A stretch of DNA of 64,000 bases, from NCBI RefSeq assembly GCF_005145045.1, contig NZ_CP039692.1, positions 947,501 through 1,011,500 of the forward strand, in the 5' to 3' direction. Of this stretch, positions 4,769 through 60,345 are shown piece after piece. Source of the stretch: Agrobacterium larrymoorei (GTDB lineage Bacteria > Pseudomonadota > Alphaproteobacteria > Rhizobiales > Rhizobiaceae). Made by a program: the position numbers and the translations under genes. Numbering within the stretch: the stretch's first letter is position 1; the number at the start of each line of letters is the position of its first letter. The notes under the pieces were generated by a model that saw nothing but the letters and a program-made list of their open reading frames with translations, had not been told where the DNA came from and ran no database searches.

Positions 4769-5836
4769 TCAAAGCCGATGATCCGGAAAAAGGGGCGCAG
4801 CGCTTGGCTTAAGGTAAGACGCAATATCGCTCTCAGTCACATCGGCCAGCGAAGACGGCTTCCACTGAGGATTGCGGTCCTTGTCCACAAGCGCCGCCCT
4901 TACTCCCTCGTAAAAATCGTGGCGCCGCAATATCTCGCATCCCGCCGCAAACTCACGCTCCAGACACTCCACCAGGCCGGAGCTATCGCGCCCCTTGCGC
5001 AACAGAAGAAGCGTCAGCTTCAGGCTGGTGGGGGATCGCATGTTCAGAAGGGCGAGGCTTTCGCGGGCGAAATCGTCATCGCGTTTTTCCAGTTCGGCGA
5101 TGATGTCTTCCACTTGATCGAAGCGGAAAGCCTCATTGATGAGCGCTTGATTGCGCTGCAGCACACTCTCGTCCGGCGCGGTCGCGAAATGCCTGATCAC
5201 CTGATCGACATTATCTTCATTTGAAACCTCTGAGAGGCCATCGATCAGTTTCGAAAGTTCTTGTGATGGGACGTGGTAATCTGCAAGCCCCGCATAGAGG
5301 GCATCGGCTGCACCGATTTCCTTTCCGGTCAAACCCAACCACGTTCCGGCCTCTCCGGGGGCCTTGGGCAAAAGCCAGGTCGCGCCGACATCGGGAAAAT
5401 ACCCGATGGCGGTTTCGGGCATGGCGAGCCGCGTCCGCTCCGTGACGATGCGATGGCTTCCATGGGCGGAGATGCCGACGCCGCCACCCATGACGATACC
5501 GTCCATCAGCGCGACGAACGGCTTGGAATAGTGCGAGATCAGGTAATTGAGCGGAAATTCATCGCGCCAGAACCGGGTGCGCTCCTCCTCCGATGCAGCG
5601 CGGGCGCTATAAATCTGGCGTACATCGCCCCCGGCGCAGAGACCGCGTTCGCCTTCCCCCAGAAGTATCACGCATTTTACGGCTGAATCCCGTTCGAAAC
5701 GCTCCAGCGCCGCTCTCATCTCGTGCACCATGGCAAGCGTCAGGCTGTTGATGGCTTTCGGTCTGTTGAGCCTGATGATGCCTGCCGCGCCGCGCCTCTC
5801 GGTGACGACATCCGTATCGGCAAAATTATTTTGCAT
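4769..5836 (-). CDS. 3-hydroxyisobutyryl-CoA hydrolase (enoyl-CoA hydratase/isomerase fold)
   Basis: Probably hydrolyses 3-hydroxyisobutyryl-CoA to 3-hydroxyisobutyrate in valine breakdown (cytosol). The 355-residue length, the crotonase-fold oxyanion motif GGDVRQIY (near 68-75) and the GGGVGISAHGSHRIVTERTRLAMPET region are typical of HIBCH rather than of shorter (about 260 residue) enoyl-CoA hydratases. The start has GGGAGGAG 6 nt upstream. It is transcribed alone: sbp follows about 145 bp downstream on the same strand, and a DUF2934 gene diverges upstream. Some proteins of this family act on other beta-hydroxyacyl-CoAs, so the substrate is inferred from family only. Confidence 0.85.
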   Translation of the reverse strand: MQNNFADTDVVTERRGAAGIIRLNRPKAINSLTLAMVHEMRAALERFERDSAVKCVILLGEGERGLCAGGDVRQIYSARAASEEERTRFWRDEFPLNYLISHYSKPFVALMDGIVMGGGVGISAHGSHRIVTERTRLAMPETAIGYFPDVGATWLLPKAPGEAGTWLGLTGKEIGAADALYAGLADYHVPSQELSKLIDGLSEVSNEDNVDQVIRHFATAPDESVLQRNQALINEAFRFDQVEDIIAELEKRDDDFARESLALLNMRSPTSLKLTLLLLRKGRDSSGLVECLEREFAAGCEILRRHDFYEGVRAALVDKDRNPQWKPSSLADVTESDIASYLKPSAAPLFPDHRL

Positions 5837-8976: not shown

Positions 8977-9001
8977 GGAACCAATCGAGTTGGGCAGCGT
9001 T
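8977..9001 (+). promoter_or_regulatory. EcfG (general stress sigma) promoter
   Basis: GGAAC (8977-8981), 16-nt spacer, CGTT (8998-9001): an exact match to the alphaproteobacterial GSR promoter consensus. It points at the DUF883 gene, whose ATG is 45 nt beyond the -10 element. Confidence 0.85.
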
Positions 9002-11686: not shown

Positions 11687-11712
11687 AACGGCACGAGCTG
11701 GAAATTAGTTCC
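11687..11712 (-). promoter_or_regulatory. EcfG promoter for the PRC-barrel gene
   Basis: On the minus strand: GGAAC (11712-11708), 17-nt spacer, CGTT (11690-11687), exact at all nine consensus positions. It fires toward the PRC-barrel gene, whose start is 82 nt downstream. Confidence 0.8.
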
Positions 11713-11869: not shown

Positions 11870-13573
11870 ATGCGGGACGCGACGATTTCCAAGTTTCGAA
11901 AATCTCTGGCCAACTTTTTTCCTACCGCCTCCCTGGGCGCATATCTCGTCATCATGACAACGGTCGTCACGCTGCCGCTAATTATATTCGCAGGCTATCT
12001 GATGCTTCGGCTGGAGGCGGATGAGCGGGAGGACCTGAAGCGTGAAGCCGTTGAAGACGCACGCGCAATTAGCCTCAATATAGAACGCCGCCTTCAGGAA
12101 ATGTCCACGACGCTCAACCTTCTGTCGCAGTTCCCGGAGTTGGAAAATGGCGATCTGGAAGTGTTTCACAAGCGCGTCAGCGAGAGCCTTCAGAAACGCG
12201 GTCTATACGTCATCGTCGCGACGAAAGACGGAAGACAGAGGCTGAACAGCCGCGTTCCTTATGGCCAGCCACTGGCATCCGTTCCAGCGCAGGCTGACAT
12301 AGGCGCAGCGACCGAGGCGAACCGCATTGCGGTTTCGAATATCTTCTTCGGCGTCACCAGCAAGGAGTGGGTGTTCAACGTCACACTTCCGTTACCGCGC
12401 CAGCTTTCTGCTGCGGGGGACGCGTTGATCGTCACTCAGGGCGCAAAGGAACTCTCGCGCCTGATATCGACTGACGCCATTCCCAATGGATGGTCGGCGG
12501 CGGTTCTGGACAACAGCGGTCACGTCGTCGTTTCCAGCGATCTGGAGCGCACAAAACCGGGCGATATCTATGAGTCGCCTGAGACAACCGCCCGCATGTC
12601 GTCCTTTAGCGGAAGCTTCATCGATGAACATAATGAAATCCATGCCTATGCCCAGCTTCCGGGCTGGTCATGGAAGGCAGTGGTTTGGGGGCCCGTAGAC
12701 CGAAGTGAATCCGCCCTCACCAGCACATGGCGGCACATGATCATCGGCAGCTTCATCCTCGTGCTTGTCGCGGTGCTGGGTGCCTATGTCGTCGGGCGCC
12801 AGCTGCGCCGTTCCGTCCATGAACTGGCGGGTGTGGCGGAACGCATCGGCGAAGGCGAAATCGTTTCACCGATCCAGACCAACGTCACCGAGCTCAATCA
12901 GGTGGCCATAGCCCTCTCCAATGCGTCCTTCGATCGGAGCCAGGCGGAAGATCGCAACCAACTCATCCTGCATGAACTGGTGCATCGCTCCAAGAATATG
13001 CTGACCCTCGTGCAGGCAATGATGCGCCAGCTTGCGAGGGAGAACACGACCGTCGCCGATTTCCAGAAGGAAGTGGACCACAGGCTGCGCGGCCTTGCCA
13101 TGTCCATCTCCGCCCTTTCGGACGTTCAGTGGGAAGGCCTGCCGATCCACAGGCTGATCAGAACGCATATGGACGTTTTCGGTCGGACGGCCGAGCAAGT
13201 GGATATAGAGGGCGAAGATTTCATACTCTCACCGGATGCGGCACAGAATTTCGGACTGATCCTGCACGAACTCAGCACGAACTCCATAAAATATGGAGCA
13301 TTGTCGGATCCGGCAGGCCGTGTCCATATTCGCTGGAGCAGTAAAAAATCCGGCGATCACGAGTTGTTGAATATGGAATGGGTGGAAAGCGGCGGTCCGG
13401 TAACGACTGCGCCCACGCGTCGCGGGTTCGGATCGACCATCATAAAACGCCACGCCGAAAGCGCCTTTTCTGCAAATATTTCAATCGATTATGCGCAGAC
13501 AGGCTTTATGTGGAGCATGTCTGCGCCGCTGCGGCATTTCCTCAAGAGACACGCTGTCAATCCCACGCAATAA
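11870..13573 (+). CDS. Membrane HWE-family sensor histidine kinase
   Basis: A 567-residue sensor: transmembrane helix 1 (about 26-46), a periplasmic dCache-like domain (about 47-285), transmembrane helix 2 (about 289-309), a HAMP-like segment, then an HWE/HisKA_2 kinase. The phospho-acceptor box is LHELVHRSKNMLTLVQ (His near 372), the N-box is ILHELSTNSIKYGAL, and the G-box is RGFGSTII. HWE kinases of this kind phosphorylate PhyR in alphaproteobacterial GSR, and the phyR gene is 1.3 kb away, so a role in PhyR control is a good inference. The start codon is taken as the first in frame; no strong ribosome binding site is visible. Confidence 0.85.
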   Translation: MRDATISKFRKSLANFFPTASLGAYLVIMTTVVTLPLIIFAGYLMLRLEADEREDLKREAVEDARAISLNIERRLQEMSTTLNLLSQFPELENGDLEVFHKRVSESLQKRGLYVIVATKDGRQRLNSRVPYGQPLASVPAQADIGAATEANRIAVSNIFFGVTSKEWVFNVTLPLPRQLSAAGDALIVTQGAKELSRLISTDAIPNGWSAAVLDNSGHVVVSSDLERTKPGDIYESPETTARMSSFSGSFIDEHNEIHAYAQLPGWSWKAVVWGPVDRSESALTSTWRHMIIGSFILVLVAVLGAYVVGRQLRRSVHELAGVAERIGEGEIVSPIQTNVTELNQVAIALSNASFDRSQAEDRNQLILHELVHRSKNMLTLVQAMMRQLARENTTVADFQKEVDHRLRGLAMSISALSDVQWEGLPIHRLIRTHMDVFGRTAEQVDIEGEDFILSPDAAQNFGLILHELSTNSIKYGALSDPAGRVHIRWSSKKSGDHELLNMEWVESGGPVTTAPTRRGFGSTIIKRHAESAFSANISIDYAQTGFMWSMSAPLRHFLKRHAVNPTQ

Positions 13574-13591
13574 AAAACTGCAACGAAGTGT

Positions 13592-13616
13592 GGAACCGAG
13601 TGTCAGGACGTGCGTT
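13592..13616 (+). promoter_or_regulatory. EcfG promoter of an sRNA
   Basis: GGAAC (13592-13596), 16-nt spacer, CGTT (13613-13616), exact. It lies 19 nt after the kinase stop and no protein gene follows on this strand. About 80 nt later there is a strong terminator, which defines a short RNA. Confidence 0.8.
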
Positions 13617-13622
13617 CTTCCA

Positions 13623-13730
13623 CCATGCCAAGCCATTCCCCCGTCCCCGCCTGCGGCTTGGCGATGCAGGTTTTGCCCCTGAAAACCTGCCATGAATAGC
13701 ACGGCTCTGCCCAGAGCCGTGCTTTTTCTA
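13623..13730 (+). ncRNA. Predicted EcfG-dependent sRNA with C-rich loops (GsrN-like by design)
   Basis: Bounded by an exact EcfG promoter and a rho-independent terminator, giving about 105 nt. Three stems are visible: GCCAAGCC/GGCTTGGC (13627-13634 with 13655-13662) around a 20-nt loop holding CCCCC and CCCC; GCAGGTTTT/AAAACCTGC (13666-13674 with 13682-13690) with loop GCCCCTG; and the terminator stem AGCACGGCTCT/AGAGCCGTGCT (13698-13723) with loop GCCC and a T run. All loops are C-rich, as expected for an RNA that pairs with G-rich ribosome binding sites. In Caulobacter the sigma-T-controlled sRNA GsrN has the same logic. The start point is inferred from the promoter. No ORF of note is inside. 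Confidence 0.72.
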
Positions 13731-13757
13731 TTTCTGGCAAGTGTTTAGGACGAATTC

Positions 13758-13785
13758 AGAGCGTTCCCTGTTAAATGGAAGCTCT
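13758..13785. repeat. Short RIME-like terminal repeat
   Basis: The segment beginning AGAGCGTTCCCTGTTAAATG forms an imperfect hairpin (AGAGC/GCTCT plus TTCC/GGAA). It matches, with about two differences over 24 bases, the outer end of the long inverted repeat at 59986-60148. It abuts the stop codon of the next kinase gene. Confidence 0.55.
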
Positions 13786-14778
13786 CTAAGCAGCCACCGG
13801 CGCGGGGAAACGCAGGAAGTAACTCACCTCATCGCCTGAAACCTTGTAGTTTGCTTCGCCGCCAAGGGCCGCGGGCACGACCTTTTCCAGAACAACGCTG
13901 CCGAAATTTCCACGGCGGTCATCGTCCGAGGAAGACGACGCGACGTCACGCCCCAGAGGCTCACTCCAGCGCACTTCATAAAAGTCGCTGTCTTTCTGAC
14001 ATTCGAGCGTGATTGGCAGATGGTTGCCGAGATTGGCGCTATGGCTGACCGTGTTGACCACAAGCTCATGAAACGCCAGACCGACATAAAGTGCGCCGTT
14101 TGGATTGAGCAGAAGGTTTTCGCCCTTCATCTGAATGAGATGAGGGTATTCCGGCAAATAAAGATCGGCCTGCTGCTTGAGCAGATCGAAGATTTCCGCC
14201 CCGCGCCAGTCTGAATCGGTGATGAGATCCTGAGATTGCGCAAGCGCGTGCAGCCTGCCGCGAAACTTCCGCAGGAAATCCTCTTTGGTGAAGCTGAAGC
14301 GAGCGGTCTGGGCAGAAAGACTCTGAATGATGGCCAGCAGGTTCTTGGAGCGGTGGCTCACTTCGCGCAGGAGCGAGCGAAGCAACTGCTCGCGCCGCCG
14401 CTCGACCGTTACCTCGCGGATCGTGGTTTTCAGCACCCGTTGGCCAGACATGTTGACGGTGGAATAGACGTGGAACTGGAAGACCCGGTCCTTGCCCGCC
14501 GTTACCTCCAGCATGCCACGGCTGCCCGCCGCCGTCAGGTCCTTCTTCAGTTCAGAAAGCCTGAGCGCCAGATCCTTGCCGAAAATATTCTGATCGTTCG
14601 GATCCTCTTCCGAGTGCTGCGGCAGAGCCCAGACATCCGGCAGATTGGCGATGAAGATATATTCCCGGTCGCGATCCTGCAGCATGACAGTCTCGCCGGA
14701 ATCAAGCAGGGCCAGCACGAGCGAGTCGTGCAGTTCACCCTCATTTCGATCCGTATTATGCCACGCGAGCCGATGCAA
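13786..14778 (-). CDS. Cytosolic HWE-family histidine kinase with PAS-like sensor
   Basis: A 330-residue soluble kinase. Residues about 20-125 look like a PAS domain (MLQDRDREYIFIANLPDVWAL ... RVFQFHVYSTVNMSGQRVLKTTIREVT); the H-box is LREVSHRSKNLLAIIQ (His near 142); the N-box reads FHELVVNTVSHSANL (Asn near 242) rather than the usual HELATNAAKYGAL, and the G-box is GNFGSVVLEKVVP. The start is a TTG at 14778 with AGGAG 8 nt upstream; no in-frame ATG is better placed. It is convergent with the sRNA and follows phyR on the same strand. It is very likely a GSR kinase acting on PhyR. Confidence 0.83.
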   Translation of the reverse strand: MHRLAWHNTDRNEGELHDSLVLALLDSGETVMLQDRDREYIFIANLPDVWALPQHSEEDPNDQNIFGKDLALRLSELKKDLTAAGSRGMLEVTAGKDRVFQFHVYSTVNMSGQRVLKTTIREVTVERRREQLLRSLLREVSHRSKNLLAIIQSLSAQTARFSFTKEDFLRKFRGRLHALAQSQDLITDSDWRGAEIFDLLKQQADLYLPEYPHLIQMKGENLLLNPNGALYVGLAFHELVVNTVSHSANLGNHLPITLECQKDSDFYEVRWSEPLGRDVASSSSDDDRRGNFGSVVLEKVVPAALGGEANYKVSGDEVSYFLRFPAPVAA

Positions 14779-14892: not shown

Positions 14893-15687
14893 TTACGCGG
14901 CAACACGTGAACTTTCATTGAAGAAAAGAGCCTGACTGATGAGGGCCTTCACCATATCCGGGTTGAAGGGCTTGGTTACAAGGAAGGTCGGCTCCGGGCG
15001 TTCGCCCGTCAGAAGTCTTTCCGGGAACGCAGTGATGAAGATGACAGGCAGTGACGTCATCTGAAGGATATCCTTCATGGCGTCGAGACCGGAGCTTCCG
15101 TCTGCAAGCTGAATATCCGCAAGAATCATCTTTGGCTGCGTGCGGTGGAACAGCTCGAGCGCTTCCTTGTGCGTGCGGGCGATACCGGTCACGTTGTGAC
15201 CGAGGTCGGTAACCATCTGCTCGATATCCATCGCGATCAGAGGTTCGTCCTCGATGATCATGATATCGGTTGCCACCTGGCGCGCAATCTCAGATGCTGC
15301 TTCGTCGATGAGCTTGCCGATTTCGCTTTCCGGCACGCGCAGAATTTCAGCCGCTTCGGAAGGAGAAAATTCCTCGACCGTGGTCAGAAGGAAGGCCTGT
15401 CTCGGCACCGCAGGAACGGCGGAAAGGTTTGCGGACGCGCGCTTTTCCCAGCCGGAAAGGTTCTCGTCGCTCTTAATATTGATGGTGACGGAACTAAAGA
15501 TGGAGACAAACAATTGGTAAAGCGAGACGCGATCGCTGCTTGTCTGCGGGAAAATGCTGACATCTGCGATCAAGGCTTCCAGGCTGGCAGCCACATAAGC
15601 GTCACCGGTGGATTGAGAGCCGCAAACAGCACGCGCGAACCTGCGAAGATATGGCAGGTGCGGTGCAATGCGAGTGGAAACGGACAT
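14893..15687 (-). CDS. phyR: PhyR, anti-anti-sigma response regulator of the general stress response
   Basis: PhyR sequesters NepR when phosphorylated and so frees the sigma factor EcfG. The 264-residue protein has an ECF-sigma-like N-terminal half (about 1-135; region 4-like FSPSEAAEILRVPESEIGKLIDEA) and a C-terminal receiver domain with acidic pair E146/D147, phospho-acceptor D191 (ILADIQLADGSSG), T219 and K239. GGGGAG lies 8 nt upstream of the ATG. It is divergent from nepR-ecfG, and an exact EcfG promoter sits 48 nt before its start, giving positive feedback. Confidence 0.96.
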   Translation of the reverse strand: MSVSTRIAPHLPYLRRFARAVCGSQSTGDAYVAASLEALIADVSIFPQTSSDRVSLYQLFVSIFSSVTINIKSDENLSGWEKRASANLSAVPAVPRQAFLLTTVEEFSPSEAAEILRVPESEIGKLIDEAASEIARQVATDIMIIEDEPLIAMDIEQMVTDLGHNVTGIARTHKEALELFHRTQPKMILADIQLADGSSGLDAMKDILQMTSLPVIFITAFPERLLTGERPEPTFLVTKPFNPDMVKALISQALFFNESSRVAA

Positions 15688-15734: not shown

Positions 15735-15759
15735 AACGTACACTCGGAAAAAAAGTTCC
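15735..15759 (-). promoter_or_regulatory. EcfG promoter of phyR
   Basis: Minus strand GGAAC (15759-15755), 16-nt spacer, CGTT (15738-15735), exact. Autoregulation of phyR by EcfG is known in this class. Confidence 0.88.
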
Positions 15760-15767
15760 GCGCGGGC

Positions 15768-15792
15768 GGAACGTTTTTTTTGATTGCGCATT
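15768..15792 (+). promoter_or_regulatory. Probable EcfG promoter of nepR-ecfG (imperfect -10)
   Basis: Plus strand GGAAC (15768-15772), 16-nt spacer, CATT (three of four bases of CGTT). Its -35 box faces the phyR -35 box in the palindrome GTTCCGC-GCGG-GCGGAAC (15755-15772), flanked by A and T tracts. Confidence 0.5.
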
Positions 15793-15824: not shown

Positions 15825-16025
15825 ATGAGCATGTTTCAATCGGATCAGGATCCATCTGATAACGGGGCGGGGCCGACTGTCCCTGATTCCGGTCGGGCAG
15901 TTATTACCCGCAAACTTAGAGAACTTTACGACGCCGTTCAGGATGAAGGTATCCCGGACAAGTTTCTCGACCTACTCGAAAAGCTTGACGAGGCTGAAAG
16001 CAAATCGAAAGCTTCGGGTGGATAA
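15825..16025 (+). CDS. nepR: NepR anti-sigma factor
   Basis: A 66-residue protein with the NepR core ITRKLRELYDAVQDEGIPDKFLDLLEKLDEAE (about 27-59), two helices that clamp the sigma factor EcfG and are captured by PhyR after phosphorylation. The Asp/Gly-rich N-terminus is expected to be disordered. AAAGGA lies upstream; a second ATG at 15831 is possible. The stop overlaps the ecfG start (TAATG), so the two proteins are translationally coupled. Confidence 0.95.
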   Translation: MSMFQSDQDPSDNGAGPTVPDSGRAVITRKLRELYDAVQDEGIPDKFLDLLEKLDEAESKSKASGG

Positions 16026-16591
16026 TGACAAAAGACGTGGAAACAAACGGCCACAATTTCAAACGTGAAATGTTGGCGGCGCTGCCAAACCTGCGCGCAT
16101 TCGCCATTTCTCTCATCCGCTCGCGCGACCGCGCAGACGATCTCGTCCAAGACACGATCATGAAGGCATGGGCAAAGCAGGAAAGCTACCAGCCTGGCAC
16201 CAACATGCGCGCATGGCTGGTAACGATCCTTCGCAACGAGTTCTACAGCCAGATCCGTAAATCGGGCCGCGAAGTTCAGGATACGGACGGCGCTTACACC
16301 TCGAGACTATCGGTGCCGCCGGAGCAGCACGGTTCTGTCGATCTTCAGGACTTCCGTCAGGCTCTCGACAAGCTGCCGGACGACCAGCGTGAAGCGATCC
16401 TTCTCATCGGCGCCTCCGGCTTTGCCTATGAGGAAGCCGCCGAGATTTGCGGATGCCCTGTCGGAACGATCAAGAGCCGCGTCAGCCGCGCTCGACTTCG
16501 CCTTCAGGAACTGCTTGGTATCGAAGACGAGAACGAATTCGGACCGGATGCACAGACAACCGCCGTGACTGCCGCAGCCTCGCTGCGCTAA
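16025..16591 (+). CDS. ecfG: EcfG-family RNA polymerase sigma factor of the general stress response
   Basis: An ECF15-type sigma factor of 188 residues: region 2 (LRAFAISLIRSRDRADDLVQDTIMKAWAK, about 20-48, then NMRAWLVTILRNEFYSQIRK) and region 4 (LPDDQREAILLIGASGFAYEEAAEICGCPVGTIKSRVSRARLRL, about 118-162). It directs polymerase to GGAAC-N16/17-CGTT promoters, four exact copies of which lie in the preceding 8 kb. Held inactive by NepR, released by PhyR-P. A strong terminator follows. Confidence 0.95.
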   Translation: MTKDVETNGHNFKREMLAALPNLRAFAISLIRSRDRADDLVQDTIMKAWAKQESYQPGTNMRAWLVTILRNEFYSQIRKSGREVQDTDGAYTSRLSVPPEQHGSVDLQDFRQALDKLPDDQREAILLIGASGFAYEEAAEICGCPVGTIKSRVSRARLRLQELLGIEDENEFGPDAQTTAVTAAASLR

Positions 16592-34645: not shown

Positions 34646-34721
34646 GAGAAAACCTCTGCACCATCGGCGTCATGTCGGAAACGGTCCGACATCGTGAAAG
34701 CGCCGGGACTTTCACCAGAGG
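34646..34721 (-). promoter_or_regulatory. Structured 5' leader that pairs the ribosome binding site (candidate riboswitch or thermosensor)
   Basis: On the minus strand: P1 CCTCTG (34721-34716) with CAGAGG (34658-34653), which contains the SD; P2 GTGAAAG / CTTTCAC (34715-34709 with 34700-34694), 8-nt loop TCCCGGCG; P3 ATGTCGG / CCGACAT (34692-34686 with 34678-34672), 7-nt loop. The P2 loop CGGCG can pair with CGCCG (34669-34665), making a pseudoknot. All three stems are perfect. The ATG follows 7 nt after P1, so folding would block translation. I do not recognise a known riboswitch class. Confidence 0.6.
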
Positions 34722-34757
34722 GGCCCGGACCAGCGGGTCGAGAAAGATGTAGGAGAA

Positions 34758-37783: not shown

Positions 37784-37832
37784 GACGTCTCCTGTTCAGG
37801 GCATCCCCGCCCGTGACATTGGAATGAACTCT

Positions 37833-38022
37833 CGACGGCAGGTCTCCTGGCTCACGGATGATCGTCTTGCCCGCCTTCCCACGATTATTCGCAGTGGCCT
37901 GACGCAAGTATGCGTCACGAGTGCTCGACAATCCGCTTACAGTTGCGGGGGCAGCCACGGCATTGAAGCAATGCCTCTCACCGTGTTCCCTATTATTCCT
38001 TGCGATCTCTCGCTTGGAACCG
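37833..38022 (-). promoter_or_regulatory. Cobalamin riboswitch
   Basis: On the minus strand the segment shows the conserved order of cobalamin riboswitches: GGTTCC near the 5' end, a GGGAAC...GGTGAGAGGC region, the B12 box GCCCCCGCAACTGTAAGCGG (about 37932-37951), then GCCACTG, GGGAAGGCGG and the 3' core GAGCCAGGAGACCTGCC (about 37837-37853). It is about 190 nt long and lies 208 nt before btuF. B12 binding is expected to shut off the operon. Confidence 0.93.
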
Positions 38023-38117
38023 TCGCGGACCAGATAGAACTATTTGGCTTCCGCCGTCAAGCACCGATTTGTAATGTTATTACATATCAAACACAATAAA
38101 CTTATCATTCTGAAAAT

Positions 38118-60218: not shown

Positions 60219-60345
60219 AAAAAGGAAAAAGCCTGCCGCGGGAGGAGGTGCGGCAGGCTTTAAACTTGATCGACAACTGGGAGGAGGAGTGTTGCCGATC
60301 CACATCTCGCGACGCTGGGAGGAGGAGTGCGTCGCTTCGATGATT
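60219..60345 (-). ncRNA. sRNA with three CCTCCTCCC loops (cuckoo / alpha-r14-type)
   Basis: On the minus strand three hairpins follow one another: GCGACGC / GCGTCGC (60335-60329 with 60315-60309) and GATCG-CAAC / GTTG-CGATC (60300-60291 with 60277-60268), both with the same 13-nt loop ACTCCTCCTCCCA, then the terminator hairpin GCCTGCCGC / GCGGCAGGC (60258-60250 with 60239-60231), loop ACCTCCTCCC, followed by TTTTTCCTTTTT. These loops are anti-Shine-Dalgarno, as in the cuckoo (alpha-r14) family of Rhizobiales and in CcsR RNAs of Rhodobacter. The 5' end is not fixed; a TTGCTG-N17-TGTTAA sequence upstream places it near 60370. Confidence 0.85.

Follow-up and report, generated by a model that had tools for sequence, protein, structure and literature searches.

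A predicted small RNA with C-rich loops beside the general stress response genes of Agrobacterium

The general stress locus

The window is the whole stretch of DNA that we have analysed, 64,000 nt from Agrobacterium larrymoorei (contig NZ_CP039692.1, positions 947,501 to 1,011,500). Near phyR, nepR and a sigma factor gene it has a promoter of the EcfG type, which is followed by three hairpins. The features of this locus are listed below, numbered from the first letter of the window.

11870–13573, + strand: HWE histidine kinase gene (Pfam PF07536), which ends 19 nt before the promoter
13592–13616, + strand: EcfG-type promoter, with GGAAC at 13592–13596, a 16-nt spacer and CGTT at 13613–13616 (exact GGAAC-N16-CGTT match)
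about 13623–13727, + strand: predicted small RNA of about 105 nt, with its start placed from the promoter and its end from the T-run
13627–13662, + strand: hairpin 1, whose C-rich loop of 20 nt (13635–13654) is AUUCCCCCGUCCCCGCCUGC
13666–13690, + strand: hairpin 2, with the loop GCCCCUG at 13675–13681
13698–13727, + strand: intrinsic terminator, with 11 pairs, a 4-nt GCCC loop and a T-run
13786–14778, − strand: HWE histidine kinase gene (PF07536), convergent with the RNA gene
14893–15687, − strand: phyR (PF22029, PF22233, PF00072)
15825–16025, + strand: nepR (PF18557)
16025–16591, + strand: ecfG-type sigma factor gene (Pfam Sigma70_r2 and r4_2), adjoining nepR and phyR

The initial annotation of this DNA had placed the RNA inside the general stress locus. 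The Pfam matches agree with it: an HWE kinase, PhyR, NepR and the sigma factor are all found downstream. Judging from gene order, the kinase gene at 13786–14778 occupies the place that Jans 2013 gives to tcrY. The exact GGAAC-N16-CGTT promoter that had been described is indeed present on the forward strand at 13592–13616. The whole window contains four GGAAC-N16/17-CGTT sites, while 1.03 are expected, and none of 100 shuffles reaches four.

Other promoters of the EcfG type are found nearby. Two of them lie back to back between phyR and nepR: one at 15735–15759 (−), GGAAC-N16-CGTT, is directed towards phyR, the other at 15768–15792 (+), GGAAC-N16-CATT, towards nepR-ecfG. Another one, at 8977–9001 (+), precedes a gene ending in a DUF883-like glycine zipper, and one at 11687–11712 (−) precedes the gene of a PRC-barrel protein. 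The genes behind these last two promoters are likely to be further members of the stress regulon.

Fold of the predicted RNA

The segment 13623–13730 folds with −48.1 kcal/mol (z = −6.37), a value which none of 200 shuffles equals. The fold has three stems with loops AUUCCCCCGUCCCCGCCUGC, GCCCCUG and GCCC, in agreement with the three stems predicted in the initial annotation for a product of about 105 nt. The strong rho-independent terminator described after the promoter is also found, with 11 pairs, a 4-nt loop and a T-run. A scan for terminators gave five matches in 5 kb and 5.1 in shuffles, and this count is by itself not evidence; the terminator at 13698 has the longest stem among the matches listed by the scan. 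Taken together, the stretch 13592–13727 looks like a genuine small-RNA gene beside stress-response genes.

Conservation within the genus

A BLASTn match to the RNA was found in 36 of 37 genomes of the same genus, the own genome included; none of 24 genomes from other families of the order matched the RNA region. In the 37th genome (G014) the covariance model detected a diverged copy, L290, whose terminator has been replaced. By BLASTn and covariance model together the RNA is present in all 37 genomes. We have aligned 38 copies, 37 from the stress locus and one paralogue (L291). All of them have GGAAC, and in all of them GGAAC-N16-NRTT precedes the start of the covariance model, at 31 nt in 35 copies and at 30 nt in three. 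The spacing of the promoter is thus constant over the 38 copies, and the sequence of the spacer and the flanks is variable.

A covariance search for the stems in related genomes had been suggested; within the genus the stems show covariation. At the positions of the structure 99.2% of the alignment cells of the 38 copies are paired. Compensatory changes on both sides are found in 12 of the 30 pairs, in an alignment fitted to the model, as compared with 3.1 in shuffles; none of 500 shuffles reaches this number. The covariation score is 0.145, against 0.089 in shuffles (0 of 500), and there are 19 further pair types, against 16.2 (8 of 500). In an unfitted MAFFT alignment of 27 copies, both partners have changed in 8 of 30 pairs. 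In the fitted alignment, five of the eight pairs of hairpin 2 are of this kind.

The loops show a different degree of conservation. Loop 1 has CCCCGTCCCC in 37 of the 38 copies and loop 2 has CCCC in 36, whereas CCC is found in the terminator loop of 7 copies. The observation that every loop is C-rich holds for the copy in the window; as a conserved design it applies to loops 1 and 2. The paralogue is a shorter second copy away from the stress locus in genome G028 (contig C3, RNA at 1501–1579). Hairpin 2 is missing from it, but the EcfG promoter, the terminator and hairpin 1, C-rich loop included, are retained; this suggests that loop 1 is the core of the RNA.

G014 is peculiar in another respect. 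A telomere resolvase (PF16684), an enzyme linked with Agrobacterium, is found in 36 of the 37 genomes of the genus, with G014 as the exception. Since both the diverged RNA copy and the lack of a telomere resolvase match are found in G014 alone, this genome probably branches deep within the genus. In contigs C6 and C7 of genome G005 the telomere resolvase domain is matched nine times, in several cases by fragments.

Could the hairpins simply be the 3′ untranslated end and the terminator of the upstream HWE kinase gene, with a promoter match due to chance? On the same strand, the promoter follows the kinase gene at a distance of 19 nt, and a kinase lies upstream of the RNA in 19 of the 20 same-genus loci read at length. 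However, in locus L213 the upstream kinase is absent while RNA and promoter are retained, the paralogue has kept promoter and hairpin 1 elsewhere and without a kinase, and the promoter is retained in all 38 copies. We have therefore rejected this reading, which is very improbable, and the kinase gene 11870–13573 is not needed for the RNA gene. A gene for a small protein has still less to recommend it and can practically be discarded. In the window's copy an ATG at 13625 opens 24 codons with a stop at the foot of the terminator, but an ATG at this place is found in 1 of the 38 copies, and the single-base length changes in loop 1 shift the frame; on both grounds it was rejected.

Related loci in other genera

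In other genera the covariance model of the window's RNA found no convincing relative in searches of the family and of the order. Since these scored 12 or 15 candidates per genome out of some hundreds to thousands, their silence carries little weight. They returned genomes of the same genus alone (4 of 247 and, in a second draw, the own genome). A match in genome G393 (L035) turned out on reading to be an unrelated terminator.

We have also made a census of 60 phyR loci from other Rhizobiaceae (59 genomes, 54 genera), which were chosen down the score list with some skipped. The rule required GGAAC-N15-17-[CT][GA]TT and then at least two runs of four C within 105 nt. It is matched beyond phyR, on the strand opposite to phyR, in 21 of the 60 loci (18 of the 54 genera); this number is partly post hoc, since the rule was written after a first look at the loci. 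The controls use the same rule: they give one match on the other strand of the same region, none with the reversed motif and none on the other side of phyR, while 50 rounds of dinucleotide shuffling give a mean of 0.48 and a maximum of 3. A further three loci (L073, L092 and L122) were picked out visually or by means of a relaxed motif, which makes a total of 24. The relaxed promoter scan, applied to 38 loci without match, gave six matches: L092 and L122 look right, the other four were dropped. By these rules no such RNA was found in the other 36 of the 60 phyR loci, where it may be absent, located elsewhere or differently built.

The window's RNA and 24 RNAs from other genera were folded. In these 25 RNAs 91% of the C runs of at least 4 nt are unpaired, compared with 64% in shuffles. 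There is no clear excess in three of the 25 (L066, L074 and L097), and for the window's RNA taken alone 5 of 59 shuffles do equally well.

Search for targets

The katG leaders of 14 same-genus genomes, compared by eye, have no G-tract common to all, and katG is not supported as a target; in the duplex energies computed for these leaders the whole RNA could unfold and pair, and they carry no weight. An early part of nepR reads GGGGCGGGG in the window, and the energies of the loop-1 duplex range from −23.6 in the window to about −10 over the same-genus loci. This G-tract is not shared by 20 other loci of the genus, and nepR was also rejected.

Six genomes contain 52 near-complete complements of loop 1, fewer than the 145 of the reversed control; for loop 2 the complements outnumber the control (47 vs 21), about six of them being the RNA gene itself. 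Eighteen contexts of such complements were read and contain no conserved sense site. The one loop-1 site common to three of the genomes whose contexts were read is antisense to the start of a gene. A near-complement of loop 2 is present in the own genome a few bases before an ATG (L265).

Proposed mode of action

We consider it probable that the stretch codes for a small RNA which acts in trans as part of the general stress response of Alphaproteobacteria and whose C-rich loops pair with mRNAs. In the established pathway, stress leads to phosphorylated PhyR, which takes NepR off EcfG. The freed EcfG would transcribe the RNA from the promoter at 13592–13616, as the sequence of this copy predicts, and transcription would stop at 13723–13727. 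The RNA would then expose two single-stranded C-rich stretches, CCCCGUCCCC in loop 1 and CCCCUGA in loop 2. By analogy with GsrN and katG these loops may base-pair with mRNAs at G-rich stretches, which probably lie near ribosome-binding sites, and Hfq is probably involved. Such pairing would change the translation or the stability of the mRNA. The present analysis provides the promoter motif, the terminator, the conserved fold, the nearly invariant loop cores, the locus and the conservation. Other systems provide, by analogy, the EcfG dependence of ReC64 in Rhizobium and the pairing of a C-rich loop of GsrN in Caulobacter.

The same loops might instead hold a protein or another RNA, as a decoy or sponge. 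Two separate C-rich loops do resemble repeated binding sites, and the search for a conserved mRNA target (katG, nepR and the loop complements in six genomes) found none. We regard this as unlikely: the exact sequence of loop 1 is kept across the genus, which is more than a mere C-rich site needs, and GsrN and other RNAs with C-rich loops work by pairing, according to the text available of Tien 2018 (PMC5869019). The convergence of the RNA gene with the kinase gene on the other strand (13786–14778), which is found in the window and in the Rhizobium loci checked, would fit a local regulator acting on this kinase through convergent transcription or read-through. There is little chance that this is so, as about 56 nt separate the end of the RNA from the stop of the kinase, with no overlap unless there is read-through, the paralogue has no kinase match in its 3 kb, and the sequence of the loops would be irrelevant to such a role.

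Beyond the trans-acting RNA of this genus, the stress loci of Rhizobiaceae might contain one ancient and fast-changing family of small RNAs. Selection would hold only the EcfG promoter, the place and the two C-rich loops, while the stems, the flanks of the loops and the terminator would be replaced between genera. Loop 1 would be its functional core, given the reduced paralogue in G028 and the near-identical loop 1 of group g71 (L067 and L068), which is CCCCCCGTCCCCCGCC as compared with CCCCCGTCCCCGCC in the window, set in an unlike stem. We put this forward as a tentative idea, somewhat less probable than its opposite. If it is true, the RNA would serve to recognise G-rich start regions in general, and would add a post-transcriptional branch to the general stress response in the whole family. 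A family which keeps its loops and drops its stems would have most of its relatives missed by sequence searches, including those with a covariance model from one genus. For the general stress response of Rhizobiaceae, transcriptional control is well understood, the action of the small RNAs less so. The RNA described here offers a short conserved stretch and loop cores which predict a pairing rule, with 21 to 24 further loci for comparison.

Comparison with known small RNAs

In Rfam 15 the stress-locus RNA has no match at the gathering score, RF02344 included, and neither have eight related loci. A permissive scan of 13500–13800 gave L20_leader with 19.8 bits (gathering 58.7) and ncS025 with 17.6 bits (gathering 46), which we judge to be due to chance. 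In other parts of the window Rfam detects a cobalamin riboswitch (RF00174, 118 bits) at 37820–38039 (−), a terC RNA element (RF03067, 60.9 bits) at 34677–34736 (−) and an alpha-r14 small RNA (RF02344, 113.7 bits) at 60224–60345 (−). The alpha-r14 RNAs, which are also small RNAs of rhizobia, have unpaired C-rich motifs of the anti-Shine-Dalgarno type. In this they resemble the stress-locus RNA, but the latter does not match RF02344.

Small RNAs under control of a general stress sigma factor have been reported in related bacteria. In Sinorhizobium meliloti RpoE2 motifs are described in front of 23 small RNAs. Bsr6 of Brucella abortus, compared here by description only, is similar in that it depends on the general stress sigma factor RpoE1, whose motif is present in its promoter; the part of the report available to us mentions that no role was found in a mouse model (PMC12772402).

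GsrN of Caulobacter crescentus, which we know from its published description, is likewise controlled by the general stress sigma factor and has a C-rich loop in its 5′ hairpin. An exposed C-rich loop in the 5′ hairpin is also found in the window's RNA, from its fold and the 38 copies. The initial annotation suggested a functional counterpart of GsrN: the EcfG-type promoter, the non-coding RNA with a terminator, the conserved C-rich loops and the locus favour it, but the link with katG of Caulobacter is unsupported here, the katG leaders having no shared G-tract. The comparison with GsrN is right for Rhizobiaceae and is already in print, as seen in the accessible text of Tien 2018 (PMC5869019). 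GsrN-like RNAs with an exposed C-rich 5′ loop near the stress locus are predicted there in R. etli, S. meliloti, B. abortus, Agrobacterium radiobacter, Rhodopseudomonas and Bradyrhizobium, and they share with the window's RNA the neighbouring stress locus, the EcfG site and the exposed loop. In that same text, relatives of GsrN itself are found by BLASTn in Caulobacteraceae only, and the A. radiobacter case comes from BLASTn with the R. etli RNA; it is presumably an RNA of the Rhizobium type. A search of the literature from 2018 on GsrN, Rhizobium and the general stress response returned Tien 2018 alone. The literature searches yielded no publication about the Agrobacterium RNA itself, and the passages available of two surveys of Agrobacterium RNAs, candidate tables aside, do not mention the locus.

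One of the closest known RNAs is ReC64 of R. etli. It lies downstream of phyR-tcrY and is conserved in strain 3841, its start determined by 5′ RACE is at the place predicted by the EcfG motif, and its reporter expression is lost without ecfG1; the portion of Jans 2013 at hand leaves its role undetermined (PMC3892343). It was seen on a Northern blot together with an additional larger band (Vercruysse 2010, PMC2881028, in the text available). A 2014 study of R. etli, also accessible in part, reports that ReC64 is raised in salt shock and assigns its promoters to SigA and RpoH.

The pattern of the g53 type (L072, L081 and L074) matched 63 stretches in named genomes, mostly Rhizobium, R. johnstonii 3841 and R. 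phaseoli among them. The promoter pattern is present in 55 of the 63; the remaining eight have AGTT at the −10 place. In the named Rhizobium loci the kinase adjoins the RNA in 9 of 9 and is convergent with it, and PhyR is within the stretch in 8 of 9. We conclude that the Rhizobium RNAs which were fetched (strain 3841, R. phaseoli and others, R. etli CFN42 not being among them) are ReC64. Its reported length is 88 nt; in L171, counted from the inferred start, hairpin 2 ends after 86 nt and the T-run is reached after 124 nt.

The sequences of R. johnstonii 3841 and R. phaseoli resemble the window's RNA in lying beside phyR and a histidine kinase, in their EcfG promoter, and in having two hairpins with C-rich loops as well as a terminator. 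The window's RNA lies, as ReC64 does, beyond the phyR-kinase pair and opposite to phyR, with its C-rich loops in hairpins 1 and 2. In contrast, the stems and most of the loop sequence are unlike. Homology to ReC64 in sequence or structure was looked for by profile and found no support: the Rhizobium model R2 fails on the window's RNA, R1 fails on three loci of the Rhizobium type, and the two models miss each other's RNAs. The only links, and weak ones, are L068 (g71) and L115 (g72), with weak to fair scores of 18.9 and 22.8 bits in the window's model and 23.3 and 34.5 bits in R2. In L115 the stretch 4775–4893 (+) at the phyR locus is RNA-like and is scored by both covariance models, with no match to the promoter rule; it is a possible bridge between the window's group and that of Rhizobium. 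A common descent of the window's RNA and ReC64 is likely, as far as the sequences can tell. The kind of RNA is already known from ReC64 and Tien 2018; what is new is a sequence-distinct group without Rfam match, together with the census. Covariation, paralogue and wide census are absent from the available text of Tien 2018, and the fresh part lies in the census and in a pattern where the loops are kept over the stems.
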